A program made the position numbers and the translations under genes. Below are positions 306 through 21,425 of a stretch of DNA of 24,403 bases, one piece after another; position 1 is the stretch's first letter, and each line of letters starts with the position of its first letter. The stretch is from a virus, in the IMG/VR virus record IMGVR_UViG_3300044843_000391, positions 1 through 24,403 of that record; one strand, written 5' to 3'. A model generated the notes under the pieces. The model worked only from the letters and a program-made list of their open reading frames with translations, was not told the DNA's origin and made no database searches.

Positions 306-421
306 TGTCTAACGAACAAACCAATCAAATACTAAAAGAAAGAGCCATAGCAAAACTAGTTGCTTTGGGATTAACAGAAGCAGAATTACGTTCATTGGGG
401 TTGACATCAGATGCCAATTAA
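305..421 (+). CDS. 38-residue helical peptide between two fibre genes
   Basis: The ATG overlaps the upstream stop (TAATG at 303-307), and the stop at 419-421 lies inside the next gene, which starts at 411. The reading frame is thus coupled on both sides, which supports it being real. The product has a charged amphipathic stretch (LKERAIAKLVALGLTEAELR) ending in LGLTSDAN. Short helical peptides of this style are often found directly after phage tail genes (the XkdX-type small proteins are one example), but no firm family can be assigned by eye. It might be a small tail-associated or assembly peptide. No signal peptide or membrane helix is visible. Confidence 0.6.
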   Translation: MSNEQTNQILKERAIAKLVALGLTEAELRSLGLTSDAN

Positions 422-2498
422 TAGTGACGGTAAAGTAGCATATATTTATAAGGATGGCACATGGTATGCCATCAGTGGTGCTATTAATACTAATGCTTCT
501 TATACTTGGACTGCTTCACAAACCTTTGCATCCCCCGTTACTTTTGAAGAAGTTTTAATATCAAGAGCAGGAATTAATAATTTTCAGTCTCCAGAAACTC
601 GTGACATTGCTATACCAAACCCAGTAGATGGTTCAGTTTGTTTTGTAAGACAATCTACAACTGGCGGTACTGTAATAAACCAATTACAGTATTACCATAA
701 TGGATGGAAGAATGTATCAGGGTATTCAAATGTTGTATCAAAGTTAGGTTCTTATAGTATTGATTTAAATGATGCGGGTAAAGTAATTACTGTAGACAGT
801 TCTTCTGCTTCTACAATTGCCCTTCCAACAAACGCAGAATTGCCAATAGCAAATGGTTTTAAGTTTGATGTAGTTAGATTGGGAACTGGTACAGTACTGA
901 TTAGTTCATCTGCAACAGTTCTCAGCAAAAATCCTAGTGAAGCATATATTGATTCTCAATATGGTAGAGTTACTGTTATAAAGTTAGACACTAATACATG
1001 GTTAGTTACTGGCGATGTATATGAAGGATCAACCATAGCACCTGCTCCTGTTGCTCCTGCTCCAGTTGCCCCAGCACCTTCACCTGCTCCCGTAGCACCT
1101 TCACCTGTAGCACCTAGCCCAGTAGCCCCTGCTCCTGTAGCACCTCCACCTGTCGCACCTGTCGCACCTGTCGCACCTGTAGCCCCTGCACCAGTACCTG
1201 CTCCTGCACCAGTACCTGCTCCTGCACCAGTACCTGCTCCTGCACCAGTACCTGCTCCTGCCCCAGCCCCTGCTCCAGTAGGAGTAACAAATTACTTTGG
1301 ATATTGTGATTTAAGCAATAATCCAGTTGGACCATTCTCAACATCATCTTCTTGTGCCGATGCATATGATGCTCAAGAAAATGCAAATGGATATCCACCT
1401 ATTGGATGGGTCTGTGGTTCGACACCACAAGATGGAACACCAAGTTGTAGTGGAACATCGCCTGCTCCAACACCTGCACCAGCAGGAATTACTTATTGGT
1501 ATACAGGTTGTTGCTCCACCAATAATCAGCAGGTTACTGGAACAAGTAGCGTAGACTTTACTTTAGCATTTAATTCTATGAATAGCCAATGTTCTGGATC
1601 TGTAACAAGTACACAAAGTGGAGTTGGAGGAACAATTCCTACACTAAGTTGCGGATCATCTCCATCACCTGCCCCAGCACCAGTTTCATCATCATGCGTA
1701 CCTGCAGATGCTTGGTCATACACTAAGTCAATGTGCCAGGCTTGCGGATACTACTACTCAGATGAATTTGGTGAATGTTCAACAGAACCATGGGGTTCTA
1801 GTCCTTCGCCTGCCCCAGCCCCTGCTGCACCAGCACCTGCTCCAGCACCAGCACCTGCTCCTGCACCAGTAGCACCATCATGCGTTCCTGCAGATGCTTG
1901 GGCATACAATAAGTCTAAGTGTCAATCATGTGGATACTACTACTCAGATGAGTTTGGCGAATGCTCAACAACTCCATGGACTTCACCTGCTCCAGTTGCA
2001 CCAAGTCCTGTCGCACCAAGCCCTGTGGCACCTGTACCAGTAACAATTACACCAGTGCCAACTCCAGCACCAACTCCAGCACCTGCACCAGCACCAGCAC
2101 CTGCCCCTGTAGCACCTTCACCTGCACCTGTTGCATCATGTGATGAAAACTTGGCTTGGTCATATAATCAGTCTAAGTGTCAGTCATGTGGATATTATTG
2201 GAGCAGCACATTCGGTGAGTGTTCTTCAGAGCCATGGTCAACCCCTGTAGCACCTTCACCAGTTGCACCTAGCCCAGCAGCACCTGTAGCACCTAGCCCA
2301 GCAGCACCTGTAGCACCTAGCCCAGCAGCACCTGTAGCACCTAGCCCAGCAGCACCTGTAGCACCTAGCCCAGCAGCACCTGTAGCACCTAGCCCAGCAG
2401 CACCTGTTGCATCACCAACTGGTGGAACGACAGAGTGTACTTGTGGATATTGTTGGAGATGTAGCGAATGTTGCCCAGGAAGAACTTGCGCTTGTTAG
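411..2498 (+). CDS. Proline-rich, arabinogalactan-protein-like phage appendage protein with eight-Cys C-terminal cap
   Basis: This 695-residue protein has three parts. Residues 1 to about 205 are folded; the section around 110-205 resembles the end domain of the fibre at 12599-14812 (compare NTWLVTGD with NTWVVYGD). From residue 211 onward, tracts of AP, VP, SP and TP dipeptides alternate with Cys-rich inserts: two inserts around 289-347 and 363-420, then three copies of a 33-residue CVPADAW-type repeat beginning at C429, C491 and C577. Six copies of an eight-residue PVAPSPAA unit follow. Residues 676-695 are an eight-Cys cap, also found at the end of the protein at 14837-15814. No signal peptide is seen. 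The dipeptides are those hydroxylated and glycosylated in plant arabinogalactan proteins, and hydroxylase and sugar genes follow directly. A tail-appendage role is inferred. The ATG lies inside the preceding small gene. Confidence 0.85.
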   Translation: MPINSDGKVAYIYKDGTWYAISGAINTNASYTWTASQTFASPVTFEEVLISRAGINNFQSPETRDIAIPNPVDGSVCFVRQSTTGGTVINQLQYYHNGWKNVSGYSNVVSKLGSYSIDLNDAGKVITVDSSSASTIALPTNAELPIANGFKFDVVRLGTGTVLISSSATVLSKNPSEAYIDSQYGRVTVIKLDTNTWLVTGDVYEGSTIAPAPVAPAPVAPAPSPAPVAPSPVAPSPVAPAPVAPPPVAPVAPVAPVAPAPVPAPAPVPAPAPVPAPAPVPAPAPAPAPVGVTNYFGYCDLSNNPVGPFSTSSSCADAYDAQENANGYPPIGWVCGSTPQDGTPSCSGTSPAPTPAPAGITYWYTGCCSTNNQQVTGTSSVDFTLAFNSMNSQCSGSVTSTQSGVGGTIPTLSCGSSPSPAPAPVSSSCVPADAWSYTKSMCQACGYYYSDEFGECSTEPWGSSPSPAPAPAAPAPAPAPAPAPAPVAPSCVPADAWAYNKSKCQSCGYYYSDEFGECSTTPWTSPAPVAPSPVAPSPVAPVPVTITPVPTPAPTPAPAPAPAPAPVAPSPAPVASCDENLAWSYNQSKCQSCGYYWSSTFGECSSEPWSTPVAPSPVAPSPAAPVAPSPAAPVAPSPAAPVAPSPAAPVAPSPAAPVAPSPAAPVASPTGGTTECTCGYCWRCSECCPGRTCAC
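1191..1262 (+). repeat. 18-bp tandem repeat, four copies (PVPAPA unit)
   Basis: Four back-to-back copies of CCAGTACCTGCTCCTGCA encode PVPAPA within the Pro-rich protein. The last copy differs at its final base. A shorter 9-bp run based on CACCTGTCG lies just upstream, around 1150-1180. Such exact repeats inside a coding region can expand or contract by slippage in whole codons without breaking the frame. Confidence 0.9.
1695..2237 (+). repeat. Three copies of a 33-residue Cys-rich module
   Basis: Copies lie at 1695-1793, 1881-1979 and 2139-2237, separated by Pro-rich linkers. Each has four cysteines, a conserved C-Q-[AS]-C-G-Y-Y core, then F-G-E-C and a closing P-W. The first two are nearly identical in protein; the third begins CDENLAW and has diverged more. 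The four cysteines could form two disulfides or one metal site. The family is not recognised. Confidence 0.85.
2259..2402 (+). repeat. 24-bp tandem repeat, six copies (PVAPSPAA unit)
   Basis: Five perfect copies of a 24-bp unit occupy 2283-2402. A first copy at 2259-2282 has two changes near its start. Each unit encodes PVAPSPAA, giving alternating VAP, SPA and AAP steps. Perfect identity at DNA level suggests recent expansion and probable copy-number variation among relatives. Confidence 0.92.
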
Positions 2499-2500
2499 TG

Positions 2501-2506
2501 TATAAT
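2501..2506 (+). promoter_or_regulatory. Possible -10 element upstream of the zinc-ribbon gene
   Basis: TATAAT lies three bases after the stop of the Pro-rich protein and about 30 bases before the next ATG. A Shine-Dalgarno-like AGGGAAA precedes that ATG. TG sits directly before the hexamer without the usual one-base gap, and no clear -35 is seen. It could start transcription of the modification cassette. Confidence 0.4.
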
Positions 2507-2537
2507 GTATAAATAACTATACAAAAGTAGGGAAAAT

Positions 2538-2777
2538 ATGTCAGAAGAAAAATCAGTATGGCAAAAATATAAAGAAAGCCTTGGAGATACTAGACCATGG
2601 GATCTCATTAACCCTGAAACAGAGTGGGCATCAAAAGAGGTAGCAGAAGAAAGATATTCTATTTGTCAATCCTGTCCAGAACTAATAAAACTAACAAAGC
2701 AATGTAAAAAGTGTGGATGTTTTATGTTTGCTAAAACTAAATTACTAAATGCAACTTGTCCACTAGAAAAGTGGTAA
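2538..2777 (+). CDS. Small zinc-ribbon-like protein
   Basis: The 79-residue product has cysteines arranged as CQSC, CKKCGC and a final CPLEKW. This suits a one-zinc ribbon or knuckle and resembles the small DUF6171-type proteins found in many phages; that match is by eye. The N-terminal half is charged and lacks a signal peptide. ATG follows an AGGG Shine-Dalgarno. The gene sits between the Pro-rich appendage gene and an oxygenase that starts one base after its stop, so it is probably co-expressed with the modification enzymes. Whether it is an adaptor, an accessory protein or unrelated is unknown. Confidence 0.75.
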   Translation: MSEEKSVWQKYKESLGDTRPWDLINPETEWASKEVAEERYSICQSCPELIKLTKQCKKCGCFMFAKTKLLNATCPLEKW

Positions 2778-2778
2778 T

Positions 2779-3381
2779 ATGATTAAAGATGAAATTGCTC
2801 CAGGTATTGTTTGTTATAAGAATGTACTAGATGACAATATCATATCTACTTTAATAAAAGATATTGAAGAGGGCGCTGAATCACTAAATGTGGAATGGAA
2901 TCAGTCTCTGGTAGAGGGCCAAGGCGGTGTTGAAGTAGATACTAAGGCTAGAGATACATCAGTTATAGGTGTACCATATAAAGATTATATAGTTGATGAT
3001 TTTATGACTTTTAGCGATGCATTTTATGGAAATTTATCTAATATATTTTTTGAAGCATTTAATCCTAGAGAAATAGACTATAGATCAATGTTTTCATGTG
3101 AGACTACTTGGCATGATGACTATGGTATTTTAAAATATGGCGTTGGTCAAAAATTTACTAATCATATAGATGACCACAAGAATCATCATAGAAGAATGTC
3201 TACAATATTTTACATGAATGATGATTATGAAGGTGGAGAGATAGAGTTTCCAAGATTTAATGTAAGTCATAAACCAGAAAAAAATGAATTAATTATTTTC
3301 CCATCAACATATGTATACAATCATTCTGTACTTCCAGTAACTAGTGGAACAAGGTATGCAGTAGTAAGTTGGTTAAGATGA
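2779..3381 (+). CDS. 2-oxoglutarate/Fe(II)-dependent oxygenase, prolyl-4-hydroxylase-like
   Basis: The 200-residue protein is a compact double-stranded beta-helix oxygenase. The iron triad is visible as H129-x-D131 (in FTNHIDDH) and H182 (in YNHSVLP). R192, ten residues after the distal His, is the expected 2-oxoglutarate ligand. The family signature NDDYEGGEIEFPRF lies between them. Such enzymes oxidise a substrate C-H bond while decarboxylating 2-oxoglutarate; prolyl 4-hydroxylases are the best-known members. The position after the Pro-rich protein makes peptidyl proline a plausible but unproven substrate. Its stop overlaps the next gene's start as ATGA. Confidence 0.88.
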   Translation: MIKDEIAPGIVCYKNVLDDNIISTLIKDIEEGAESLNVEWNQSLVEGQGGVEVDTKARDTSVIGVPYKDYIVDDFMTFSDAFYGNLSNIFFEAFNPREIDYRSMFSCETTWHDDYGILKYGVGQKFTNHIDDHKNHHRRMSTIFYMNDDYEGGEIEFPRFNVSHKPEKNELIIFPSTYVYNHSVLPVTSGTRYAVVSWLR

Positions 3382-3944
3382 TACAGATTAAAGATCCAGT
3401 TATTATGGATAAAGTTTTTTCTGAAGAAGAATATTATGAACTTAGTAACTATTTAAAAAATAAACCAAAAAATCCACAAGACTATTCTGATGGTTTTGGA
3501 AGGTATTGTTTTAATGACTCACTAATAGACTCTTATGCAGAAAAGTTAATACCAATTGCTAGAAAACAATTTAACAGTGAAAACCTTATTCCATCATATT
3601 CTCTTTTTGCACATTATGAAGGAAAGCAGGCAAATTTATACAAGCATATAGATGATAACGCTTGTACCTATACTATAGACTTTTGCGTTTATCAAACAGA
3701 GCCATGGGATTTATTTGTAGAAAATAAAGCATATACATTATATCCAAATCAAGCCCTTGCTTATTATGGAAATGATCAGTTGCATTGGAGAGAAAAATTT
3801 CCAAACCCAGATTCTGGAAATGTAGCAATGATATTTTTTCATTTTGTTGAACCAGATCACTGGTGGGTACAAAAGGGTCCAGGGTACTTAGATGTAATTC
3901 GTAAAACTATAACGGAGGAACAATGGAATCAAAGACAGCAATAG
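3378..3944 (+). CDS. Divergent 2OG-Fe(II) oxygenase-like protein
   Basis: I place the start at the ATG at 3378, which overlaps the previous stop as ATGA; a TTG at 3369 would add three residues but lacks support. The 188-residue product has H90-x-D92 (LYKHIDD) and H136 followed by R138 (QLHWREKF), matching an iron triad with a nearby basic residue. It lacks the NDDYEGGE signature shared by the other oxygenases here, and the basic 2OG ligand is not at the usual spacing. It may act on a different substrate or be catalytically altered. The 3' end overlaps the next gene by 22 bases. Confidence 0.7.
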   Translation: MIQIKDPVIMDKVFSEEEYYELSNYLKNKPKNPQDYSDGFGRYCFNDSLIDSYAEKLIPIARKQFNSENLIPSYSLFAHYEGKQANLYKHIDDNACTYTIDFCVYQTEPWDLFVENKAYTLYPNQALAYYGNDQLHWREKFPNPDSGNVAMIFFHFVEPDHWWVQKGPGYLDVIRKTITEEQWNQRQQ

Positions 3945-4891
3945 TGTTTGGCGCAGGAGGATTTATTGGAAGTCATCTTGTCAAAAAATTGAAAGAACAA
4001 GGTTTTTGGGTTCGTGGTGTAGATCTTAAATATCCAGAATATTGGAAGACGTATGCTGATGATTTTGTAATTGGAGATTTAAGAAATCCAGACGTTGTAA
4101 AAAAAGTAATGCCAATAAAATTTGATGAAGTTTATCAATTGGCTGCTGATATGGGTGGAGCAGGGTATATTAACTCTGGCGATAATGATGCAGAAGTTAT
4201 GGGTAACTCAATATTAATAAATGTTAATGTTTTGAAGCAGGCAGAAATAGTAAGAATTAAGTCTATATTTTTCTCATCTACCGCTTGTGTCTATCCAGAG
4301 TATAATCAGATGGATCCAGGAAGTATAAATACAAAAGAAGATTCTGTTTACCCTGCAGCACCAGATACAGAGTATGGCTGGGAAAAACTTTTTAGTGAGC
4401 GACTATATCTTGCATATAATAGAAATTATGGTATGAAAAATAAGATAGGAAGATATCACAACGTGTATGGCCCATACGGTACTTGGGATGGCGGTAAAGA
4501 AAAGGCACCAGCAGCCATTTGTCGCAAGGTAGCAAAGGCAACAGATGAAATAGAAATCTGGGGTAATGGAGAACAGCATCGCTCATTCTTGTATATAGAT
4601 GAAGCAGTTAAGGCTACAATAGATTTTTATAGAGAAGAAAACTATTTTGATCCAATCAATATAGGTTCAGAAAGAAATGTTTCTATAAATGAATTAGTAG
4701 ATATTGTTTGCAATATAGCAGGAAAGCAACTAAATAAAAAGCATATTTCTGGACCACTTGGTGTGCATGCAAGAACGTCTCATAACGAATTAATTACAAA
4801 AGTTTTGGGATACAGGCCAAGCGAAGATCTAGAGTATGGTCTGACACAGACCTATAACTGGATAAGCGATCAAATTAAAAATGTCAAATAA
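3923..4891 (+). CDS. GME: GDP-mannose 3,5-epimerase-like enzyme
   Basis: This 322-residue extended short-chain dehydrogenase begins with an NAD-binding GAGGFIG loop (residues 10-16). It has S-S-T-A-C122-V-Y-P-E, Y151-x-x-x-K155 and the block GTWDGGKEKAPAAICRK containing K194. These match the plant GDP-mannose 3,5-epimerase family, where the Cys and second Lys are the acid/base pair, so the call is stronger than a generic epimerase. The reaction converts GDP-D-mannose to GDP-L-galactose, with GDP-L-gulose as a side product. A strong GGAGG precedes the ATG. The next gene, an O-fucosyltransferase-like enzyme, could use the product because L-galactose is 6-hydroxy-L-fucose. Confidence 0.86.
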   Translation: MESKTAIVFGAGGFIGSHLVKKLKEQGFWVRGVDLKYPEYWKTYADDFVIGDLRNPDVVKKVMPIKFDEVYQLAADMGGAGYINSGDNDAEVMGNSILINVNVLKQAEIVRIKSIFFSSTACVYPEYNQMDPGSINTKEDSVYPAAPDTEYGWEKLFSERLYLAYNRNYGMKNKIGRYHNVYGPYGTWDGGKEKAPAAICRKVAKATDEIEIWGNGEQHRSFLYIDEAVKATIDFYREENYFDPINIGSERNVSINELVDIVCNIAGKQLNKKHISGPLGVHARTSHNELITKVLGYRPSEDLEYGLTQTYNWISDQIKNVK

Positions 4892-5915
4892 AATATTTTT
4901 TCAGTTATACAATCCAACTGGAATGATTAATCAGGTTATGAGTTTAGAGTTGGCTATAGGACTTGCACATGAAACAAAAAAAGATTTAATTGTTCATTAT
5001 GTAAGTAATGCAGGAGACGATTTATACAACTCTAGAAATGTTCCAATTTTTACACCAAGTAGATGGCATAATGAACAACGAAAAGATTTTACAAATCCAG
5101 ATCAATTTCCACACCTTTTAGATTTAATAAACTTTAATGAAGATTTAACTTTTATAGATACAAAGATTGATTTTTTTAAACAAGAAGAGTTTGTAATTGA
5201 TGACACTCTTAATGGGTATTATTACAGTAATGAAAATGAAATATCTGAAAATGAATTATTGTTTGCCGAAGGAAGACAAAGAATTCCACTAGACAAAAAT
5301 CTTCATCTCAAAAAAACACTTGGATGGTATAGTAGATTCTTTTACAATAGAAGTCAAGAACTAGATAATGCTCTAAAGTCCGTAAAATTTAAAGATGTAT
5401 ATGTAGACTTAGCCAAAAAAATATCTAACTCTTTAGGTTCTTTTCAAGGAATGCATTTAAGGCTTTCAGATCATATCAAAATGTTTGATACAACACAAGG
5501 TATGTTTGAGTCTTGGTTAAGCATATATGAAAATAATAAATTGCCAATAGTTGTGTCTACCTGCGAACCAGGAAATAAAATGATACAAGATAATAAGCAT
5601 AGGTTTATATTGCTTGATGAGTATATAGTCAATAATTTTAGAGATGACTTTATGTCGTTGCCATTTCAGGATGAGGTTGTTTTTGGTTTAATCTGCAATT
5701 TGGTTTTGCACGATTCTGTAAATTTTGTTGGTACTTCTGGAAGTACTTATTCAGCCTATATACATAGAGTACGAAATCAAAAGGGCATAGAAACGTGGGA
5801 CTTTTTTGATAATCCACCAAAAGCAATAGGAAGTCCGTATTCTTGGAATGGATACCCACTAGAAGGCGGTAGGAAGATGTGGTGGAGAGAGTGGCAGGAG
5901 TCTAAATTAAAATGA
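4881..5915 (+). CDS. Glycosyltransferase, O-fucosyltransferase-like (GT-B)
   Basis: The 344-residue protein starts with FFQLYNPTGMINQVMSLELA, the N-terminal pattern of fucosyltransferases (usually GGLGNQ or similar, then a helix). It carries the GDP-sugar site MHLRLSDH (H192, R194). Near the C-terminus VGTSGSTYSAYIHRVR (283-298) matches the closing nucleotide-sugar block of O-fucosyltransferases. The expected role is transfer of L-fucose or a related GDP-L-sugar to an acceptor. The start overlaps the epimerase gene by 11 bases, so donor and transferase are likely made together. The acceptor is unknown; a phage appendage protein is the favoured guess, but host envelope glycans are possible. 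Confidence 0.72.
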   Translation: MSNKIFFQLYNPTGMINQVMSLELAIGLAHETKKDLIVHYVSNAGDDLYNSRNVPIFTPSRWHNEQRKDFTNPDQFPHLLDLINFNEDLTFIDTKIDFFKQEEFVIDDTLNGYYYSNENEISENELLFAEGRQRIPLDKNLHLKKTLGWYSRFFYNRSQELDNALKSVKFKDVYVDLAKKISNSLGSFQGMHLRLSDHIKMFDTTQGMFESWLSIYENNKLPIVVSTCEPGNKMIQDNKHRFILLDEYIVNNFRDDFMSLPFQDEVVFGLICNLVLHDSVNFVGTSGSTYSAYIHRVRNQKGIETWDFFDNPPKAIGSPYSWNGYPLEGGRKMWWREWQESKLK

Positions 5916-5989
5916 TAAAAAGATTAATCTTAAAGTATCGAATGTGGAAAAAACATAGAAAGATTAAAAAGTCTAATCTGATATACTAG
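5912..5989 (+). CDS. 25-residue very basic peptide
   Basis: The ATG overlaps the glycosyltransferase stop as ATGA, and the frame closes just before the next gene. The product is Lys/Arg-rich (MIKRLILKYRMWKKHRKIKK followed by SNLIY), with a short hydrophobic patch near the start. Coupled position and clear composition support translation, but the length is small and chance cannot be excluded. It could bind nucleic acid or the membrane surface. Its 3' end contains the -10 element of the next gene. Confidence 0.45.
   Translation: MIKRLILKYRMWKKHRKIKKSNLIY
5979..5987 (+). promoter_or_regulatory. Extended -10 promoter TGATATACT, leaderless spacing
   Basis: TG-A-TATACT ends seven bases before the ATG at 5995. 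A start of transcription 6-8 bases past the -10 would fall at or next to the ATG. No Shine-Dalgarno is seen. The element overlaps the end of the small basic peptide gene. Confidence 0.5.
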
Positions 5990-5994
5990 TTTTT

Positions 5995-6951
5995 ATGTTT
6001 GATGATTTATATATTCCTGGCCCAATACCACATACTGGATATAATAAAAATACTAAGAGCAGAAAGTATAAAGTCAATGATCCAATTATTGCAGCACATG
6101 CAGAAATACCTAGGCCAGAATATAGTTACCAATGGAATGATGATGGTCTAAGGTCTATAGACTTTGCACAAAAGCCAAACGTAATTGCTTTGGGTTGTTC
6201 TTTAACTTTAGGTCAGGGACTTCCAGAAAATCTAAGATGGTCTAATTTATTGCAAGAAGAATTAGGATATAGCAAACATTTAATAGGGAATATATCATAT
6301 AGTGGAGCAGCAATAAACAAGTTAGTTTCTAGTTTTTTTGGATTAATAAATAAATATGAGTATATACCAGAAATTGTTATTTGTAATTTTGCAAATTTTG
6401 AAAGATTTTATTTTGTTTCTCCAAATGCAGAATATATGCAAGATTGGTATATTAATTACTCACCAAAAAAAACCAAGGTTACGGCACCGTGGAACTATCA
6501 AGAAATTTTGCCTTATGAGTGGGTATACTATCAAAATTTAGATCATATAAAAATGCTAGAAACCTTTTGTAATTCACAAGGTATTAAACTTATTTGGAGT
6601 ACATGGTCAAATGCATTAACAGATTCTAATGAAACATTTTTAAAAAATAATTTTAAAAATTATTTTACAGACACTACTAGGAAACAGTTCCCCATGGATT
6701 TTGAATTTGATATTCATGGAGATACAAAAGATAAGTTATTGCCACAATATAAGATGATAAATTGGGATTCTGTAAAATGCCATCAAGAATATTTTGATAA
6801 TCATATGGATATTTTTGATATGGCATATGACTATCATAAGTTTGCGGGGCCATGGGGTCCAGGATCAAATAGGCCACACCCTGGAATCCATAGACAACTG
6901 CACTGGAAAGATATGTATTATAATGAATTAACATCCAGGGGATGGCTATGA
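5995..6951 (+). CDS. SGNH/GDSL-type hydrolase-like protein
   Basis: The 318-residue protein has a block I nucleophile motif ALGCSLTLGQG with S69, a block II-like NISYSGAAIN (99-108) and a C-terminal RPHPGIHRQLHW (293-304) that resembles the His block of this family. The usual Asp three residues before the catalytic His appears as Asn (N292 before H295), so the catalytic dyad may be altered. The block III Asn may be N131 in CNFANFERF. SGNH enzymes remove or transfer acyl groups, often acetyl on sugars, which would fit the adjacent glycosyltransferases. Substrate is inferred. No signal peptide is present, suggesting action in the host cytoplasm. Confidence 0.7.
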   Translation: MFDDLYIPGPIPHTGYNKNTKSRKYKVNDPIIAAHAEIPRPEYSYQWNDDGLRSIDFAQKPNVIALGCSLTLGQGLPENLRWSNLLQEELGYSKHLIGNISYSGAAINKLVSSFFGLINKYEYIPEIVICNFANFERFYFVSPNAEYMQDWYINYSPKKTKVTAPWNYQEILPYEWVYYQNLDHIKMLETFCNSQGIKLIWSTWSNALTDSNETFLKNNFKNYFTDTTRKQFPMDFEFDIHGDTKDKLLPQYKMINWDSVKCHQEYFDNHMDIFDMAYDYHKFAGPWGPGSNRPHPGIHRQLHWKDMYYNELTSRGWL

Positions 6952-7841
6952 CAGATATTGTAAAAGAATTTAAGACCATGGATGGGTTAGGTGCAATGCT
7001 ATGGAAAAAAATATACGCTATGTCATATGCTAAGTACCATAAAAAAATATTTAAGGACACACCTATCGATTGGTTTTTAATTCATAAATCTGATGGTATT
7101 GATGGTGAGGATGATCCAAAATATAAAAATTTAATGGATAAGTTTAATAATGTTTTATACAATCCGTGGCAAAATATTAATTTTAATCATATACCATATA
7201 AAACTTTATGCAAGAATGTTGGGGCAGGAGCACCCGCTCCAGGCTTTGCAACTACAAACGACGATATTGATTTTTTAAAAGAAGCAATACATTTTAATAA
7301 ATTTAGTGGCGAAACTCATAACTCTATAGTTATTCACATTAGACGAGGAAATGCTATACCAGAAAATCCAAGGTATGTAGAGGATAAATTTTATGAAAAG
7401 GTTTTGTTACAAATATCAGAAATTATAGATAAATGTCAGATGGATAGCCCAGATGTTATTATCTGCACTGATTCTGATGATAATACTTTTACTCCAAGGG
7501 GGTATAACCAAGAGCGTATGTGGAGACAGCCACACTTATATCAAAATGAATCTGGAGAGTATCCACACACAAGTATTAACTTTGATTTACTTAAAAAGGC
7601 ATACCCAAATGTAATAATAAGAAATGACATGGATACATATAGTTCGTTTATTTTTATGTTAACTGCTAAGGTTTTAATAGTTGGAAATTCTGCATTTAGT
7701 CAGTCTGCTGGACTTTTATCTACCAATAGCGTTATTGGAATGCCTGCAAAACATGGAATGGATCCAAGGCATAACCACTTTAAAAATAAAGTAGCAGCCC
7801 TGGATCCATCTGGTGTTTTATTGTGGGAATCCACCCATTAG
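6948..7841 (+). CDS. Second glycosyltransferase, fucosyltransferase-like
   Basis: Two starts are possible: ATG at 6942 or at 6948. I choose 6948 because it forms an ATGA overlap with the upstream stop and sits at workable distance from AGGGG at 6937-6941, which is too close to 6942. The 297-residue product has VIHIRRGN (H120, R122, R123), the GDP-sugar motif of alpha-1,2/1,6- and O-fucosyltransferases. The C-terminal block YSSFIFMLTAKVLIVGNSAF, followed by SQSAGLLS, resembles the donor-binding end of these enzymes. It probably adds a second sugar in the same glycan pathway. Its 3' end overlaps the convergent lytic transglycosylase gene by 24 bases. Confidence 0.68.
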   Translation: MTDIVKEFKTMDGLGAMLWKKIYAMSYAKYHKKIFKDTPIDWFLIHKSDGIDGEDDPKYKNLMDKFNNVLYNPWQNINFNHIPYKTLCKNVGAGAPAPGFATTNDDIDFLKEAIHFNKFSGETHNSIVIHIRRGNAIPENPRYVEDKFYEKVLLQISEIIDKCQMDSPDVIICTDSDDNTFTPRGYNQERMWRQPHLYQNESGEYPHTSINFDLLKKAYPNVIIRNDMDTYSSFIFMLTAKVLIVGNSAFSQSAGLLSTNSVIGMPAKHGMDPRHNHFKNKVAALDPSGVLLWESTH

Positions 7842-14836: not shown

Positions 14837-15814
14837 ATGGCAAATAAAAAAGTAGGTAAAAAGTCCCAGGCAGCAAACGACTTCTTGGAACCAAAGCCAC
14901 CAATCGATGTTGTTCCAACCAACACATGTAGTGGTAGAGCATATAACAATGGTGCTGTATCAGTTGCTTTTGCATTGCCTGCAGGATCACCTCCAGCAAC
15001 CTCTTATACTGTTACAGCAAGCACTGGTCAATCAGCATCAGGAGCATCATCTCCGATTACTGTGACTGGAATTGCTGCAGGAGCAACGCCTACTTTTACA
15101 GTAACAGCAACAAATGCTTCTGGAACATCACTTGCATCATCTACTTCATCTGCAGTAACAGTTACAACAATACCAAATAATCCTACAGGTGTTTCAGCAT
15201 CTGCTACATCTGCTAACACAAATACAATATCATGGACTCTTCCAACTGGATCAGCAACTGGAGGTACCGCATTAACATCAATCAGAATCACTGGTTCGGA
15301 TGGATCAAGTTATACTGGTATTTCTCCTTCTGCAACATCATATGCTGCTAATGATCCAGGAGTAAGTCCAGGATCACAGACTTATACAATTTATATTACA
15401 AATGCATGTGGAGAATCAACTGGTGTAACTACAAATAGTGTTAACACTACACCACCGTTCTTCCCATTCTTCCCGCCGTTTTTCCCATTCTTCCCGTTCT
15501 TCCCATTCTTCCCACCGTTCTTTCCGTTCTTCCCATTCTTCCCATTCTTCCCACCGTTCTTCCCGTTCTTCCCATTCTTCCCGTTCTTCCCACCATTCTT
15601 CCCATTCTTCCCGTTCTTCCCATTCTTCCCACCGTTCTTCCCTTACTTCCCATTCTTCCCATTCTTCCCACCGTTCTTCCCATTCTTCCCGTTCTTCCCA
15701 TTCTTCCCACCAAGTTTCGCACCACCACCAACTGCCCCAACAGGCGGAGGCTGTAGTTGCGGATATTGCTGGAGATGTTCAGTATGTTGCCCAGGAAGAT
15801 CGTGCGCCTGTTAA
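14837..15814 (+). CDS. Fibronectin-III-like appendage protein with Phe-Phe-Pro rod and eight-Cys cap
   Basis: The 325-residue protein has a Lys-rich start, then two fibronectin-III-like domains (about 30-112 and 113-202; note SYTVTASTGQ, TPTFTVTATNASG, ISWTLPTG, TYTIYITNACG). Residues 206-290 are an unbroken rod of PPFFPFFPFFPFF units. A short Pro linker leads to an eight-Cys cap (306-325) almost identical to that of the protein at 411-2498. No signal peptide is seen, despite the extreme hydrophobicity of the rod. AAAGGGG precedes the ATG. It is followed by a terminator-like hairpin, then by oxygenase genes. The Pro residues are possible hydroxylation targets. The role in the virion is inferred. 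Confidence 0.83.
   Translation: MANKKVGKKSQAANDFLEPKPPIDVVPTNTCSGRAYNNGAVSVAFALPAGSPPATSYTVTASTGQSASGASSPITVTGIAAGATPTFTVTATNASGTSLASSTSSAVTVTTIPNNPTGVSASATSANTNTISWTLPTGSATGGTALTSIRITGSDGSSYTGISPSATSYAANDPGVSPGSQTYTIYITNACGESTGVTTNSVNTTPPFFPFFPPFFPFFPFFPFFPPFFPFFPFFPFFPPFFPFFPFFPFFPPFFPFFPFFPFFPPFFPYFPFFPFFPPFFPFFPFFPFFPPSFAPPPTAPTGGGCSCGYCWRCSVCCPGRSCAC
15452..15706 (+). repeat. 39-bp repeat encoding a 13-residue PPFFPFFPFFPFF unit
   Basis: One short unit (PPFFPFF) is followed by six full 13-residue units; one of them has Tyr for Phe. The DNA uses almost only TTC, CCA and CCG codons, unlike the A/T-ending codons of the neighbours. The bias leaves other frames open on both strands (Ser/His/Arg-rich on +, Gly/Arg/Met-rich on -). 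Confidence 0.92.
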
Positions 15815-15816
15815 AA

Positions 15817-15850
15817 TTAGTGAGGGTATATGAAGATATGCCCTCATTAA
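15817..15850. terminator. Terminator-like stem-loop after the FFP protein
   Basis: TTAGTGAGGGTATA (15817-15830) pairs with TATGCCCTCATTAA (15837-15850), a 14-bp stem with two G-U pairs and a six-base loop. It starts three bases after the stop and is followed by a promoter. The T-run after it is weak, so it may act as an RNA end protector as well. Confidence 0.6.
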
Positions 15851-15858
15851 ATAACATA

Positions 15859-15867
15859 TGCTATAAT
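15859..15867 (+). promoter_or_regulatory. Extended -10 promoter TGCTATAAT
   Basis: TG-C-TATAAT lies just downstream of the hairpin and about 23 bases before the ATG at 15891. AAAGGAG lies in the short leader. It likely drives the oxygenase operon. Confidence 0.6.
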
Positions 15868-15890
15868 AAAAGTACTAAAGGAGATTATTA

Positions 15891-16328
15891 ATGTATGCAA
15901 TAATAGTAGAAAACAATGATGCTTATGATGTTATTGGATTATATTCAAACAATAAGCCAGAGGTAATGGATAATCTTGATACAGTCTATGCAACTGGAGC
16001 AACTATTTCATCAATGGATGCAAGTGCATACAAGCAAACAGCATTGCATGGAGCAACTTTTAATGGTTCATCATTTTCTGGGGGAATCGCAGGGCCTAAC
16101 TTATTAACTGCTACACAGGAGCAATTAGATTCTTTTAATTTGTATGCATTCTTATCCAACAATGTTGTTGTTGCAAGAGTGGCTGTGCCATCAGAAGGTC
16201 CAAAGGCAGAAATGTTTGCTGCTGCAAATGCTGCAGGTATGACCTTAGCAAAGATTCCAGACAGACAAACTGTTTATGTCGGACAAACATATAATTGGGA
16301 CGGAACCTCTTTTAGTTCAATAGCATAA
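15891..16328 (+). CDS. Small phage tail-associated protein
   Basis: The 145-residue product begins MYAIIVENNDAYDVIGLYSN. Its centre reads FNLYAFLSNNVVVARVAVPS, followed by a helix-like AEMFAAANAAG. It ends VYVGQTYNWDGTSFSSIA, a V-G-x-x-[YW]-x-W-D-G-x-x-F ending common in small phage tail or fibre-tip proteins. No enzyme motif is seen. It starts the unit that continues into six oxygenases, so it may be one of their substrates or simply share their promoter. Function is not assigned. Confidence 0.6.
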   Translation: MYAIIVENNDAYDVIGLYSNNKPEVMDNLDTVYATGATISSMDASAYKQTALHGATFNGSSFSGGIAGPNLLTATQEQLDSFNLYAFLSNNVVVARVAVPSEGPKAEMFAAANAAGMTLAKIPDRQTVYVGQTYNWDGTSFSSIA

Positions 16329-16352
16329 CTTTAACTTTGAAAGGTTAATCGT

Positions 16353-17075
16353 ATGGAAATTTATGATGAAAACCAGAATCCCTGGTTTACAAAAGATCGT
16401 TCAGAAACCGCATCAAACAGATATCCAACAAAGACTTTGCCAAACGGCATAGTTGTAGAAAATCCTGGACTTGGTTTAAATGTTTATAGAAATGTTTTTA
16501 GTAAGGATGATGCTGACAGATATATCAAAATACTTGAAGAAAATTTAGATGGTACAAGAAGATACAAGTGGTCAGAGGCACAAGTCACAAACTCTACAAC
16601 ACCAATTAAAAGAGCAAGAGATGCTGTAGACTTTAAATATAAGCAAGAAAACTTAGGCCCCAGAGATGAGTTCAATGGAGAACTGATTGATCTACATGAA
16701 GAAATTTATCAAAAATTAAAGTTTTGCATAGACGACTATGCACGTTATTGGGGAATTAATGTTATTTATTATGAAGCATTTAATTTTGTAAAGTACGAAG
16801 GAGAAGGAAAACACTTCAATATTCACGCAGATCATGGTCCAGCATACAATGCAACTGTTTCTGCCGTTATATATATTAATGATGACTATGAAGGCGGAGA
16901 AATACAATTTCCAAGATTAGACGGCTATACTCTTACACCAAAGATTGGAGACATTGCTGTATTCCCATCTAACTACATTTATGAGCATGCATCTCTTCCA
17001 ATGAAGAGCGGTACAAAGTATTGTGTCGTAATCATGACTGATATTAATGAGTTAGGTCATCAGAATGGCCGATGA
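16353..17075 (+). CDS. 2OG-Fe(II) oxygenase, prolyl-4-hydroxylase-like (array copy 1)
   Basis: The 240-residue enzyme has H158-x-D160 in NIHADHG, the signature YINDDYEGGEIQFPRL, distal H212 in YEHASLP and K222 ten residues later as the likely 2OG ligand (Lys rather than the Arg seen in some array members). The order matches the P4H catalytic core. The N-terminal 100 residues are specific to this copy. A weak GAAAGG precedes the ATG. The end overlaps the next gene by 11 bases, so the two are probably coupled. The substrate is unknown; a prolyl residue in a nearby Pro-rich protein is a reasonable guess. Confidence 0.87.
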   Translation: MEIYDENQNPWFTKDRSETASNRYPTKTLPNGIVVENPGLGLNVYRNVFSKDDADRYIKILEENLDGTRRYKWSEAQVTNSTTPIKRARDAVDFKYKQENLGPRDEFNGELIDLHEEIYQKLKFCIDDYARYWGINVIYYEAFNFVKYEGEGKHFNIHADHGPAYNATVSAVIYINDDYEGGEIQFPRLDGYTLTPKIGDIAVFPSNYIYEHASLPMKSGTKYCVVIMTDINELGHQNGR

Positions 17076-17844
17076 ATATCAAAAAGTATCCTTTAAAACA
17101 TATCGTCCTTGGCTAACAAAAGAAAGTAAATCTGCTCCAACTCCTACACAAAAAGAAATACCTCAATGGTATAAGGATGCTGATAGGTTTGCTAAAAATC
17201 CAGTAACTGGAGAATACTACAAGGCTCCAAAAGAGGTTTGTCCATTTCCAAAATCTGGAACTACAGATGATTATGGAATGATCCCAACATGGAAGGCTTG
17301 TCCAGCAATCATGGATGCTTTCATGACTGGTTATGTATTTAGAACTCCAACTGATATTACATTTACTAAAAATAGTAAAGGCTCTTTAGATTTTATAATA
17401 GAAAATCAAATGTATAGAGATTTTTGTACATCTAGGCCACCAATGCCACAATTTGAACATCCGCAAGGATATTATAAAGATCATTTTGCCTGGATGCCAG
17501 ATTGGGGAATGAAATTACCAGAAGGCTATAGTGCATTGTTTATGACTCCAATGAATAGATTTGATCTACCTTTTATGAATACTACTGGAGTGGTAGACTC
17601 AGATAAGGTTGAGTTATTGGGCAGTTTTCCATTTTTTATTATTGAAGGCTGGGAAGGAACTATTCCAGCAGGAACTCCATACCTACAAATACTTCCATTT
17701 AAAAGAGAAAATTGGGAGCATGAACTTGACATTTTAGATTCATCAACAGTATATGCTAAAATAGTAGATAACGCAAATATTTATCGCCAGCCAGATGGCG
17801 GGGTATATAAAGATAAAATTTGGACAAGAAGAGAGTATAAGTAA
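17065..17844 (+). CDS. DUF6065-like protein (divergent copy)
   Basis: The 259-residue product starts inside the upstream oxygenase. It has IPQWYKDADRF near the start, then CPAIMDAFMTGYVFRTPTDI, LPEGYSALFMTPMNRFDLPF and AGTPYLQILPFKRENW. These are laid out like the 18539 protein, where the matching points are CFPVTQSNVIGWYLSCSEDI and AGTPIATIIPISL. The relationship between the two is clear in order, weaker in identity. The fold is probably a beta-barrel or cupin-like domain, but no metal triad is evident. Its place among oxygenases suggests a partner or a substrate-related role. Confidence 0.6.
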   Translation: MADEYQKVSFKTYRPWLTKESKSAPTPTQKEIPQWYKDADRFAKNPVTGEYYKAPKEVCPFPKSGTTDDYGMIPTWKACPAIMDAFMTGYVFRTPTDITFTKNSKGSLDFIIENQMYRDFCTSRPPMPQFEHPQGYYKDHFAWMPDWGMKLPEGYSALFMTPMNRFDLPFMNTTGVVDSDKVELLGSFPFFIIEGWEGTIPAGTPYLQILPFKRENWEHELDILDSSTVYAKIVDNANIYRQPDGGVYKDKIWTRREYK

Positions 17845-17855
17845 AAGGAGATATC

Positions 17856-18539
17856 ATGTCAACCTGGACAGAAAAAGAATCATTAGGGTTTGGAATTACT
17901 TGCTATAGAGGTGTTATTAAACCAGAATTAAATATTATAGAAAGATTGGAAAGTCTTTTGGGATCTCCAGCGCCATGGGGCGAGTTGTCTCCAGAAGGAA
18001 AGCCTTATCACTGGCTACCAGCATATGTAGGATATCAACAATTAATGCCAGATTATCGTGATTGCTATGACTTTAAATTTAAGAAAACTGATATTGAATC
18101 AGATCCAAGCAAGGACTCTTTATTGCTTCAAAAAATTTGGCAAGACGTTTATGACGTACAGGCTCCAGCAGTAGATGATTATCGTAGAGATTATAACATT
18201 ATGCCGTTAAAATATTGGGAAGCATTTAACTTTATCAAGTATGGACCAGGACAACACTTTAAAGAACACCATGATCATGGGTTCTCTTATAATTGCACCG
18301 TTTCTTTAGTTGCATATATTAATGACGACTACGATGGTGGAGAGTTATATTTTAGATTGCAAAACTTAAACATAAAGCCAAAGGCTGGAGATCTGTATGT
18401 TTTCCCATCAAACTTTATGTATCCACATCAAGCAATGCCAGTACATTCTGGAACTAAGTATTCAATTGTAACAATGTTAGATTATAGTAAAAAGTATCAT
18501 ACACCAGATATGTATGATCCAAAGTGGGCAAATGAATAA
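17856..18539 (+). CDS. 2OG-Fe(II) oxygenase, prolyl-4-hydroxylase-like (array copy 2)
   Basis: The 227-residue enzyme has H138-x-D140 in KEHHDHG, then YINDDYDGGELYF, distal H201 in YPHQAMP and K211 ten residues later. It is closest to copy 1 by eye: both have EAFNF[VI]KY before the iron site, D-H-G after it and a C-terminal [KH]SGTKY. AAAGGAG precedes the ATG. The stop overlaps the next start as TAATG. Probably the two copies arose by duplication with the DUF6065-like gene between them. Confidence 0.87.
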   Translation: MSTWTEKESLGFGITCYRGVIKPELNIIERLESLLGSPAPWGELSPEGKPYHWLPAYVGYQQLMPDYRDCYDFKFKKTDIESDPSKDSLLLQKIWQDVYDVQAPAVDDYRRDYNIMPLKYWEAFNFIKYGPGQHFKEHHDHGFSYNCTVSLVAYINDDYDGGELYFRLQNLNIKPKAGDLYVFPSNFMYPHQAMPVHSGTKYSIVTMLDYSKKYHTPDMYDPKWANE

Positions 18540-19246
18540 TGTTTAACATTACTGTTGAAAAAATGCAGGGATGTATTTTTAACATTGAGCCAATGTCAAT
18601 TAAAAGAGATTGGATGGACTTAACATCTGAAAATCACGCATATAGATGTTTTCCAGTAACTCAGTCAAACGTTATAGGATGGTATCTTTCATGCTCAGAG
18701 GATATAATTTTTACATGGGATGGAATAAATGATCAGACAGACAAACATGTAAAGATTGTAAGCCCGTCAGGCTCATATTCTGGAAGAGGTCAATCTTCAA
18801 TAAGTTTAAATACTTCTTTAGTTTTTAAAACAGATCCAGATGTTAGTATTTGGACCATACATCCAGTTAATTATTTTAATGATGACTTTGAAACTATGTC
18901 CAGCGTAATAAGTACTTCATTTTATGATAACCCATTGCCCCTTGCACTTAAAGCAAAAAAGGCTAATGTAGAGACAATTATAAAAGCAGGAACACCTATT
19001 GCAACAATTATTCCAATATCTTTAACAAATTTAAACAATACAACAATTGAAATTGTAGAATATAAAGATGAGGATAGATCTAGAACAAATGCAAACATTG
19101 CTTATGGAGAGGCAGCACAGGTACTAAATTCATCTGGAAACTGGACTGATTGGTATAGAAATGCTGTAAATGAAAATGGTGAGTCTGTAGGGTCTCATGA
19201 AGTAAAAACATTAAAATTATATGTAAAAGATAACACTATAGGATGA
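18539..19246 (+). CDS. DUF6065 family protein
   Basis: The 235-residue protein carries RDWMD and AYRCFPVTQSNVIGWYL, then IIFTWDG, VFKTDPDVSIWTIHPVNYF and AGTPIATIIPISL. These agree with my knowledge of the DUF6065 family (RDWMD, AYRC.P....N..GW, a W-D-G strand and an A-G-[TE]-P ending). The function of that family is not known to me. It often appears as a single-domain cytoplasmic protein. Here it lies between oxygenases and is coupled to copy 2. Its stop codon TGA is part of the next gene's extended -10. Confidence 0.66.
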   Translation: MFNITVEKMQGCIFNIEPMSIKRDWMDLTSENHAYRCFPVTQSNVIGWYLSCSEDIIFTWDGINDQTDKHVKIVSPSGSYSGRGQSSISLNTSLVFKTDPDVSIWTIHPVNYFNDDFETMSSVISTSFYDNPLPLALKAKKANVETIIKAGTPIATIIPISLTNLNNTTIEIVEYKDEDRSRTNANIAYGEAAQVLNSSGNWTDWYRNAVNENGESVGSHEVKTLKLYVKDNTIG

Positions 19247-19252
19247 TATAAT
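19244..19252 (+). promoter_or_regulatory. Extended -10 promoter TGATATAAT, leaderless spacing
   Basis: The first three bases are the stop codon of the DUF6065 gene. The hexamer ends six bases before the ATG at 19259, and no Shine-Dalgarno is present. It gives the second half of the oxygenase array its own start. Confidence 0.58.
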
Positions 19253-19258
19253 AATAAT

Positions 19259-20014
19259 ATGATACCAGAAGATGCAGTAAAAGTAATAAGACATCCATCA
19301 ATTACCCCATCTGGGTTTTTTGGCTATGGTCCTGAAAATATAGTTGAGTTAGAAAATTTCATGACTCAAGAAGAGGTTGACTTTTTAGAAAAAGCAGCAC
19401 GAAACATAACTATTTGGGATGTTACTCAAAGCCATATAAATGAAAATGGAACAGTGATTTATGATTCTGAATTTTGGAAAGATAGAGTTGCAACGGCGCC
19501 GTCTTTAGATGCAAATGATCCAAAAATTCTTCCAGTACTAATAGGATTATTCAATAGACTTCAGCCAATTATTGAAGATTTTTTTAAGGTAAAGGTACAG
19601 CCTACAGGACAAACAATTGTTAAGTGGAATCCAGGACAGTTTCAAATGCCTCACGCAGACAAAGAATTGCATTTTGGATCAGACGCTGGACTGCCAAACG
19701 ATTTTCCATATTATGACATTTCAAGTTTATTTTATATTAATGATGATTATGAGGGTGGAGAATTATACTTTCCATATCAAAAGGTTCAATTTAAACCAAA
19801 GCGTGGTTCGGCATACTTTTTCCCAGGAGACATGAACTATGTCCATGGAGTAACAGAAGTTACAAAATCTTTAAGATATACCTGTCCATTTTTCTGGGAA
19901 ATTTTAGAACATACTGGAGACGTAAAGCCAGACCCAAATGTAAAGTACCATAGAATTTTCCCTACAGAAGAAGAAGTAAAATCTTGGGATCCAAAAAGGG
20001 GGATTAAGAAATGA
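19259..20014 (+). CDS. 2OG-Fe(II) oxygenase, prolyl-4-hydroxylase-like (array copy 3)
   Basis: The 251-residue enzyme has H132-x-D134 in QMPHADKE, FYINDDYEGGELYFPYQ, distal H196 in YVHGVTE and R206 exactly ten residues on (SLRYT). The iron and 2OG residues are all complete. An extra loop between the HxD and the next strand (LHFGSDAGLPNDFPYYD) may shape the substrate groove. A basic C-terminal tail follows (PTEEEVKSWDPKRGIKK). The end overlaps the next gene as ATGA. Confidence 0.88.
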   Translation: MIPEDAVKVIRHPSITPSGFFGYGPENIVELENFMTQEEVDFLEKAARNITIWDVTQSHINENGTVIYDSEFWKDRVATAPSLDANDPKILPVLIGLFNRLQPIIEDFFKVKVQPTGQTIVKWNPGQFQMPHADKELHFGSDAGLPNDFPYYDISSLFYINDDYEGGELYFPYQKVQFKPKRGSAYFFPGDMNYVHGVTEVTKSLRYTCPFFWEILEHTGDVKPDPNVKYHRIFPTEEEVKSWDPKRGIKK

Positions 20015-20763
20015 ATTTAGATAACAAAAATAGGCTAACAAAAGATATAGTCGTTTATGAAAACTTTATCGATTCTGAAACTGCTGCTAAACTTGTAAAG
20101 GTTTTAGATAAGCATGCAGAACTAGGAACGATTAGTTGGATGCCTATATCCTTTTATGAATCTTATTCTTCTGTTTTGCCACAAGATAACGACGAACATG
20201 TAATTGCCGAAGGTTTGCCTTCTGATATTTTTACACAAATTAAAAAAGGTATCATAGATGCCGTTGCCAGTGTTCATGATTTAGACCCAAAGATAATTTC
20301 TCAAATTGGATATCATACTCAGAAATGGGAGCCAGGGGCTTATGCAAGAAAGCATTCTGATAATACAGACGAACACGGAAATTCTGGAGCATTTACTAGA
20401 AGTAGATATGCTGCATTTTTATATCTAAATGATACCTTTGAAGGCGGACTTTTGCATTTCCCAGATCAACAAATAAGCATAAAGCCTAAAGTTGGAATGC
20501 TTGCTGCTTTTGACGGGGGATTCAACAATATGCATGAAGTAACTCTTATAACTAGTGGAGTTAGGTACACAATAGGTTCATTCTGGGATGATCGTGAAGA
20601 AGATGCATATCCACAGGAACTAAGAGACGCTTGGGCAGAAGAGATGAGAGAGACTAGAGCCAAGCAGGAAGTTGAAAGAGCCGAGTGGCAAAATCTTCTT
20701 AAAGATGGATATAAGATAGACGAAGATGGAAATAAATATCTGTTTAAGGGAGATGCTGTTTAA
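20011..20763 (+). CDS. 2OG-Fe(II) oxygenase, prolyl-4-hydroxylase-like (array copy 4)
   Basis: The 250-residue enzyme shows H115-x-D117 in RKHSDN, FLYLNDTFEGGLLHFPDQ, distal H175 in NNMHEVT and R185 (GVRYT), so the catalytic set is complete. The signature is altered (NDTFEGGLL instead of NDDYEGGEL). The last 60 residues form a charged, probably helical extension (EEMRETRAKQEVERAEWQNL) absent from the other copies; it could bind a partner. The start overlaps copy 3 as ATGA. Confidence 0.86.
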   Translation: MNLDNKNRLTKDIVVYENFIDSETAAKLVKVLDKHAELGTISWMPISFYESYSSVLPQDNDEHVIAEGLPSDIFTQIKKGIIDAVASVHDLDPKIISQIGYHTQKWEPGAYARKHSDNTDEHGNSGAFTRSRYAAFLYLNDTFEGGLLHFPDQQISIKPKVGMLAAFDGGFNNMHEVTLITSGVRYTIGSFWDDREEDAYPQELRDAWAEEMRETRAKQEVERAEWQNLLKDGYKIDEDGNKYLFKGDAV

Positions 20764-20764
20764 G

Positions 20765-21424: not shown

Positions 21425-21425
21425 A

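Follow-up and report, generated by a model that had tools for sequence, protein, structure and literature searches.

Proline-rich rod genes of phages are followed by prolyl-hydroxylase-like oxygenases and, in some loci, by sugar enzymes that may modify the rod

We analyzed a 24,403-base virus record from IMG/VR (IMGVR_UViG_3300044843_000391, here called the window as a whole) from its sequence and from predicted structures, and found that it encodes two long, proline-rich proteins that we predict to be rod-like tail appendages, each with its own oxygenases encoded downstream. These enzymes are 2-oxoglutarate (2OG)-Fe(II) oxygenases resembling prolyl 4-hydroxylases (P4Hs). The link between rod and oxygenase is a general pattern, and Pro is the feature common to the rods that adjoin these oxygenases, so that hydroxylation of rod prolines is the simplest reading. 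We propose, with slightly better than even confidence, that in phages with such rods the 2OG enzymes hydroxylate rod prolines, and that cassettes with a GDP-mannose 3,5-epimerase (GME) also add sugar to the rod. Gene order, conservation and the family or fold of seven oxygenases, of GME and of one glycosyltransferase are shown here; the substrate, the chemistry, the order of steps and the location in the virion are what we infer from them. The gene linkage supplies a concrete candidate substrate for phage 2OG enzymes and, if the proposal is true, phages build hydroxylated, sometimes sugar-coated protein stalks, with likely effects on adsorption, receptor use and stability.

The link was counted in two samples of viral loci, named after two of the window's oxygenases. 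The OG4 sample comprises the best 80 of 562 loci by OG4 similarity alone, 49 of which had at least 3 kb upstream and were scored. The OG1 sample comprises the best 80 of 583 loci by OG1 profile; 78 were typed after exclusion of two known loci (L496 and L497), and 58 with at least 3 kb upstream were scored. In both samples and in the controls, an open reading frame (ORF) was scored as Pro-rich if it lay on the same strand, no more than 4.5 kb away, and Pro made up at least 25% of a 60-residue stretch. Such an ORF was present upstream in 46 of 49 OG4-sample loci and 39 of 58 OG1-sample loci, against 7 of 87 random viral loci in one draw and 5-11 of 87 over 50 draws, a count that depends on the gene drawn. 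Co-occurrence of Pro-rich and P4H-like genes in related phages, which the original prediction for this DNA had named as a check, was found and is strong. By identity, rods accompany 11 of 13 OG1-sample loci at 44-100%, 7 of 11 at 35-43% and 21 of 34 at 28-34%. Nine of the scored loci lie in contigs already represented by other loci, two in the OG4 sample (L471, L481) and seven in the OG1 sample (L565, L578, L589, L604, L615, L622, L624), all with a rod; excluding them leaves 44 of 47 and 32 of 51. The repeat units of OG1-sample rods are unrelated to one another (PVTP, TPTP, PPPIIATP, APPDFTP, PPYDNP, PPGFFAPP and PPHFPP). Approached from the rod, 32 of 34 ORFs bearing a shared C-terminal Cys-rich cap have a 2OG gene at most 2.6 kb downstream; of the other two, L115 is cut off and L096 has none. 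In 113 loci from a relaxed viral scan for the cap, used as a stand-in random set, 2OG genes occurred in three, all with FFxPP rods directly upstream. The pattern is found in many aquatic phages and is wider than the original prediction saw. As a side observation, L585 and L595-L642 contribute the extra rod repeats PPYDNP, PPHFPP and PPGFFAPP (with X-Pro-Pro-Gly sites).

The first cassette of the window reads as follows.

411..2498, plus strand: xP-type Pro-rich rod protein, 695 residues (ORF; PHROG 8780 match to part)
2436..2495, plus strand: C-terminal cap CTCGYCWRCSECCPGRTCAC, last 20 residues of this rod (translation)
2538..2777, plus strand: small Cys-rich, Zn-ribbon-like protein, DUF6171/phrog_13558-like (PF19668 1.5e-5, just below cut-off; phrog_13558 2.5e-16)
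2779..3381, plus strand: OG1, P4H-like 2OG-Fe(II) oxygenase (PF13640 4.1e-18; HxD...H...R)
3369..3944, plus strand: OG2, conserved protein of uncertain fold in which HxD and H are invariant (family alignment)
3923..4891, plus strand: GME (PF01370 3.3e-42; PDB 2c59 2.6e-84)
4881..5915, plus strand: GTa, POFUT2-like glycosyltransferase (PF10250 in family; AF2 fold)
5995..6951, plus strand: SGNH/GDSL-like esterase candidate (weak: 9otv 0.011; PF14606 in 1 of 15 members, 0.013)
6942..7841, plus strand: GTb, GT-B glycosyltransferase, possibly fucosyltransferase-like (AF2 model, pLDDT 84.2)

The ORFs lie where the original prediction placed them, and a protein with AP, SP, VP and TP tracts is indeed followed by enzyme genes; two genes inside its interval (2538-2777 and 5995-6951) went unlisted, as did a second rod at 14837-15814 and six more PF13640 genes. 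The N-terminal part of the rod at 411-2498 is tail-protein-like, with residues 112-203 resembling a minor tail protein (PHROG 8780, 5e-9); AP/SP/VP/TP tracts, Cys modules inside the protein and a Cys-rich cap at the C-terminus make up the rest. The protein contains 120 Pro, preceded by A in 66 cases, S in 22, V in 8 and T in 8, making AP and SP the main dipeptides and VP and TP minor ones. A collagen-like identity was considered and rejected, as there is one PG in 695 residues and no Gly-X-Y pattern. Pro codons in the rods are synonymous mixtures, as expected if Pro itself is kept, which we regard as a weak argument. That mixture speaks against the tracts being neutral low-complexity expansions associated with the enzymes through inheritance of one gene block, and so does the retention of Pro among rods that are unrelated in their repeats and in the domain at the N-terminus (fn3, PASTA or tail-like). 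The sampled sequences are related, and tract length does differ among three contigs whose cassette proteins are otherwise identical (L008, L009 and L010, with rods of 801, 684+ and 693 residues), as neutral expansion would have it; we nevertheless consider this explanation very improbable.

To follow the first cassette through IMG/VR, we retrieved 75 viral loci with a GME relative and hand-picked 40 with the whole or a partial cassette, near-duplicates included, at a Pro threshold of 0.18. DUF6171 is present in 39 of these, OG1 in 34, OG2 in 38, GTa in 36, SGNH in 32 and GTb in 23, and GME in all 40, a count biased by the picking of most loci through GME. The same order of genes, complete or partial, is thus seen in 40 loci, which chance does not explain. 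A Pro-rich gene lies upstream in 38 of the 40, weakly so in L043; the two rodless loci, L038 and L046, are also devoid of OG1, OG2, GTa, SGNH and GTb. The rods themselves vary (PIPAPIPAP, PIPVPAPAP, VPVPVAPTP, IIATPIIATP, TPTP and also PQPTPQ). OG2 stands beside every rod of the table and may be the core enzyme of these cassettes.

The joint loss of rod and modifying genes in L038 and L046, the near-fixed order across very divergent rods, and the finding of a Pro-rich ORF in 0-2 of 31 GME loci without a cassette all bear on whether the enzymes act elsewhere, on host metabolism, surface polysaccharide or other tail fibres, with a variable tail region merely gathering cargo. They make such a role unlikely in our judgment, although it has precedents: the available portions of two papers describe phage 2OG enzymes in 2OG and nitrogen metabolism or DNA repair (PMC3037559) and in host reprogramming (PMC9602691). 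Moreover, neither S-SSM7 (a GME relative, GT11 enzymes and a 2OG) nor Synechococcus phage S-SCSM1 has a Pro-rich neighbour in the stretches fetched. S-SCSM1 resembles the window in its GME (57% identical), its O-fucosyltransferase and NodZ-like genes and its 24 2OG genes, but differs in that the 37 kb surrounding its GME contain no Pro-rich ORF; its authors propose cell-wall and metabolic roles, according to the part of their paper available (PMC9602691).

Seven window proteins, OG1 and OG3-OG8, match PF13640 above cut-off and are shown by family to be P4H-like 2OG-Fe(II) oxygenases. In an alignment of phage 2OGs, H138, D140 and H191 are invariant, together with a distal K or R, in 15 of 15 members. 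The top PDB matches of the profile built from these 15 are prolyl hydroxylases, with bacterial P4H 3itq (4e-17) best; others are human P3H1 8k0e (2.4e-13), 5c5t (1.7e-10), presumably the P4H of the virus PBCV-1, and 2jig. All 17 aligned members of the OG2 family have H93-x-D95 and H139, but the window protein has no Pfam match of its own, PF13532 is matched weakly by 2 of the 17 (best 0.018), and a PDB search with the OG2 profile gave no 2OG protein up to an E of 10. Cyanophage relatives of OG2 (Synechococcus phage S-SM1 SSM1_061) are annotated as ferrochelatase (PHROG 2954/3531), a name that looks doubtful, and lie near 2OG genes. In the small protein at 2538-2777, six Cys are invariant across 19 aligned sequences.

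Among the sugar enzymes, the product of 3923-4891 is, judged from its sequence, a clear GME. Its best solved match is Arabidopsis GME 2c59 (E 2.6e-84), and the two share the motifs ACxYPE, YGxEK and GGxEKAPAA, in which we take the Cys, YxxxK and the GGxEKAPAA Lys to be catalytic. Two O-fucosyltransferase-like enzymes had also been claimed. GTa qualifies at the level of the fold: its AF2 model (pLDDT 88.6) matches POFUT2 best (Z 17.5, rmsd 4.5, 266 residues aligned), with the first non-fucosyltransferase row at Z 9.2, and Foldseek comparison with POFUT2 and POFUT1 gives them as closest relatives (TM about 0.5). With an E limit of 1, 14 of 16 aligned GTa members match PF10250 (O-FucT), the best of them at 1.2e-5, the window protein alone falling far below cut-off (12.4 vs 31.5 bits). 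The modelled fold thus shows GTa to be POFUT2-like, that is, akin to protein O-fucosyltransferases. The model of GTb has a GT-B fold and matches the heptosyltransferase WaaC (Z 10.4) and POFUT1 (Z 10.2) in a tie; a possible fucosyltransferase kinship is suggested by 4 of 8 GTb members, which match NodZ within an E limit of 1, the best at 0.043.

The second cassette (14837-22825) consists of a Pro-rich rod with the same cap as the first, followed by six PF13640 oxygenases and other genes.

14837..15814, plus strand: FFP-type Pro-rich rod, 325 residues, with fn3-like N-terminus, FPFFPFFPP repeats and Cys-rich cap (fn3 0.00097, below cut-off)
15752..15811, plus strand: C-terminal cap CSCGYCWRCSVCCPGRSCAC, last 20 residues of this rod (translation)
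15891..16328, plus strand: small gene between the FFP rod and OG3, kept in the cassette (locus comparison)
16353..17075, plus strand: OG3, 2OG-Fe(II) oxygenase (PF13640 5.1e-11)
17065..17844, plus strand: phrog_7084 protein, DUF6065-related (phrog_7084 6.6e-33)
17856..18539, plus strand: OG4, 2OG-Fe(II) oxygenase (PF13640 1.9e-15)
18539..19246, plus strand: DUF6065 protein (PF19541 2.3e-26)
19259..20014, plus strand: OG5, 2OG-Fe(II) oxygenase (PF13640 2e-8)
20011..20763, plus strand: OG6, 2OG-Fe(II) oxygenase (PF13640 8.9e-9)
20726..21424, plus strand: OG7, 2OG-Fe(II) oxygenase (PF13640 2.1e-10)
21426..22157, plus strand: OG8, 2OG-Fe(II) oxygenase (PF13640 4.5e-9)
22157..22825, plus strand: short-chain dehydrogenase closing the cassette (PF00106 1.3e-40; gene order)

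The DUF6065 protein at 18539 also matches phrog_7084 (7.4e-11). A 68-row tree of 2OG enzymes places those beside xP rods apart from those beside FFP rods: the label changes 2 times, compared with a mean of about 19 when labels are shuffled; one of the two changes is L209, labelled xP though its repeat is FFxPP, and L428 forms a very long branch. This separation fits enzyme-substrate pairing, but simple inheritance as well.

The caps carry the motif CGYCWRCxxCC, which ends 7-8 residues ahead of the stop in all 34 ORFs that hold it. A tblastn search of isolated phages, with the two rods, GTa and the peptide of the cap as queries, gave no match, a search in which the low-complexity filter may hide repeats, and relaxed cap patterns run against viral and bacterial genome collections gave no further clear cap among the matches listed. 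Other rods end differently: the C-termini of L125:8643-9971, L189:8081-9406, L044:3910-5262 and L033:4706-6349 look Hint/intein-type rather than like the Cys-rich cap, with weak Pfam support in L125 (PF14890 0.0012, PF13403 0.014) and none in L044 or L033 (L189 lay outside the scan). The rods of L033 (6e-7) and L035 (1e-21) have N-terminal PASTA domains, and other rods have fn3. Cys-rich in many rods and Hint-like in others, the caps look like swappable tips.

POFUT1/2 and AspH modify EGF/TSR domains, and the substrates of POFUT enzymes are Cys-rich domains. By analogy, GTa and the oxygenases could act on the Cys-rich modules and caps, through Ser/Thr O-glycosylation and Asp/Asn hydroxylation, leaving the Pro tracts as stiff linkers. 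The window shares with the animal POFUT1/POFUT2 and EGF-hydroxylation systems the fold and family kinship of GTa, whose nearest relatives are POFUT2 and POFUT1, and the Cys-rich modules beside the rod's tracts; one cap is common to two rod types, and at least six Cys occur in all rods of the 40-locus table but L025, L026 and L043. It differs from the animal systems in its long Pro tracts and in a phage 2OG profile that best matches prolyl hydroxylases. Against modification of Cys-rich modules, an FFP rod free of Cys (L520, 0 Cys) still has oxygenases, caps vary or give way to Hint-like ends while the oxygenases persist, and Pro is what the rods have in common. On balance we find this scheme improbable, if worth keeping in mind.

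Under hydroxylation of rod prolines, the P4H-like 2OGs would act on the Pro of the rod whose gene precedes theirs, either while it is being made or ahead of assembly, and the system would have this step at its core. In the first cassette, GME would turn host GDP-D-mannose into GDP-L-galactose or GDP-L-gulose, GTa would move this sugar (or L-fucose) onto the rod, at hydroxyproline (Hyp), at Ser/Thr of SP/TP or at the Cys-rich modules. The glycan on the rod might be extended or acylated/deacylated by GTb and the SGNH-like enzyme. These steps would yield a stalk that is stiff, hydroxylated and coated with sugar and whose tip is rich in disulfides. GME and the POFUT2-like GTa adjoin xP rods, whereas the FFP sample yielded neither; the likely acceptor is therefore the xP rod. 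The sugar may be placed on Hyp, on Ser/Thr or on the Cys-rich modules, and the POFUT2/POFUT1 kinship would even point to Ser/Thr of Cys-rich modules.

A number of observations weigh against this proposal. In the OG4 sample, L492 and L543 have no Pro-rich ORF nearby and the rod of L482 lies further off; 19 of the 58 OG1-sample loci are without one. Four rods (L031, L032, L034 and L096) have no OG1 next to them, and in L579 an OG1-like enzyme (44%) stands beside an FFPP rod, so that pairing is not strict. Viral loci picked by Pro dipeptides, among the matches listed, which include some unclear genes, are not enriched in 2OG genes (5 of 120 vs 3 of 113 in the stand-in set); in L457, one of the five, the 2OG directly follows the Pro-rich ORF. 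Eight stretches near 2OG or GME genes of Kyanoviridae or marine single-cell phages have no same-strand Pro-rich neighbour, and in four of these, at the lower Pro threshold of 0.20, opposite-strand frames alone appeared, in two of the four; the link thus belongs to certain phage lineages and not to all phage 2OGs. The samples share ancestry and hold near-duplicates, so the counts are not independent events and the synteny may be inherited. As to the enzymes, PKHD/PiuC-type proteins likewise match the phage 2OG profile, which leaves the hydroxylated residue unreadable from the profile matches; prolyl hydroxylases make up a disproportionate share of solved structures, and the 2OG superfamily hydroxylates many residues. 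Comparison of OG2 with the phage 2OG family by hhalign gave a probability of 2.3 and no support; of the two prolyl-hydroxylase-like oxygenases originally claimed, OG1 stands on its PF13640 match and motif, and OG2 as a second oxygenase is unproven. Finally, in PBCV-1 hydroxyproline was sought in virions and the attempts failed despite an active P4H, according to the available text of a review (PMC7019647).

The sugar enzymes call for a further qualification, since no GME or GTa was found in the 80 loci of the OG4 sample, and 7 of 78 OG1-sample loci had GME and 5 had GTa. From this rarity we conclude that the rod-oxygenase link is general and that the sugar genes are an addition in part of the xP lineage; the sugar arm would be an add-on in a minority of rod loci. 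In this respect the original claim is not supported as stated, the sugar enzymes being accessory. The plant arabinogalactan protein (AGP) analogy proved too specific. Plant AGPs and extensins share with the window a Pro-rich AP/SP/TP/VP protein, a P4H-like enzyme and GME. In plants, however, Hyp-O-galactosylation uses UDP-Gal and GT31, and Hyp glycosylation in general uses UDP-sugars, GT31 and other enzymes, whereas a Pfam scan of 20 window proteins with an E limit of 0.01 gave no GT31 family. Likewise, [A/S/T/V]P glycomodules hold for the window rod, but across cassette relatives the X of xP is unrestricted: the cassette also occurs behind IIATP, PIPVP and PQPTPQ rods and sister 2OG loci behind FFP, HFPP and PPGFFA ones, which means that the glycomodule is not the rule. 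Overall, the underlying observation is confirmed and its interpretation partly supported.

More broadly, we consider it possible, though doubtful in its full form, that these genes represent a widespread appendage system with interchangeable Pro-repeat rods (xP, IIATP, FFP, HFPP, PPGFFA), swappable caps (Cys-rich knob or Hint-like) and a matching prolyl hydroxylase clade for each, the GME-bearing xP version being a Hyp-O-glycoprotein with L-galactose-type sugars, the first from a bacterial virus. Viral P4H has been studied in the chlorovirus PBCV-1, reportedly with test peptides that mirrored viral Pro-rich repeats. The likeness lies in a viral P4H and in 5c5t being among the phage 2OG profile matches; PBCV-1 is, however, a eukaryotic algal virus, and in the window a Pro-rich gene heads each of two cassettes, which together contain seven P4H-like genes; GME and a POFUT2-like enzyme belong to one of the two. 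The virus-encoded PBCV-1 P4H acts on Pro-containing peptides, as the available portion of the review states (PMC7019647). The known soluble pathway that joins a P4H to glycosylation is that of Dictyostelium, in which a cytoplasmic P4H modifies Skp1 and glycosyltransferases then act on the hydroxyproline, with fucose within the chain, but the substrate is a ubiquitin-ligase subunit and not a repeat rod, the sugars and enzymes are others, and GME goes unmentioned in the available part of the source (PMC3515798). Viral P4H genes are described as abundant and cryptic in use, and collagen in viral tail fibres is mentioned, in the accessible text of one paper (PMC9301287); the window rod differs from collagen-like phage tail fibres in having no Gly-X-Y. 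A literature search covering few subscription journals returned no earlier proposal of phage 2OGs acting on an adjacent Pro-rich protein, the nearest being that same paper, as far as its accessible text goes.

Regarding the phages themselves, the T4-type capsid gene gp23 was found in 1 of 13 large contigs searched and in none of the 10 with a rod cassette. The ribonucleotide reductase (RNR) is 64% identical to that of Actinomycetia phage DSL-LC01 and 62% to that of mycobacteriophage Gaia, a sequence kinship that hints at actinobacterial hosts. The phrog_7084 protein at 17065-17844 has a 28% identical relative in haloviruses (Halorubrum virus HSTV-3, L564), which lies near a class II RNR and tail and adhesin genes; the window has an RNR-like gene at 22913. 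In L081/L088 (IMGVR_UViG_3300045125_000031) many cassette genes are in pieces, in a frameshift-like manner that perhaps reflects error-prone assembly. Between the two cassettes of the window lie a 737-residue tail protein at 12599-14812, which starts with an Mtd_N (major tropism determinant N-terminal) domain and may be connected with variable tail proteins, and a lysozyme-like (SLT_3) protein at 7818-8381 on the minus strand.

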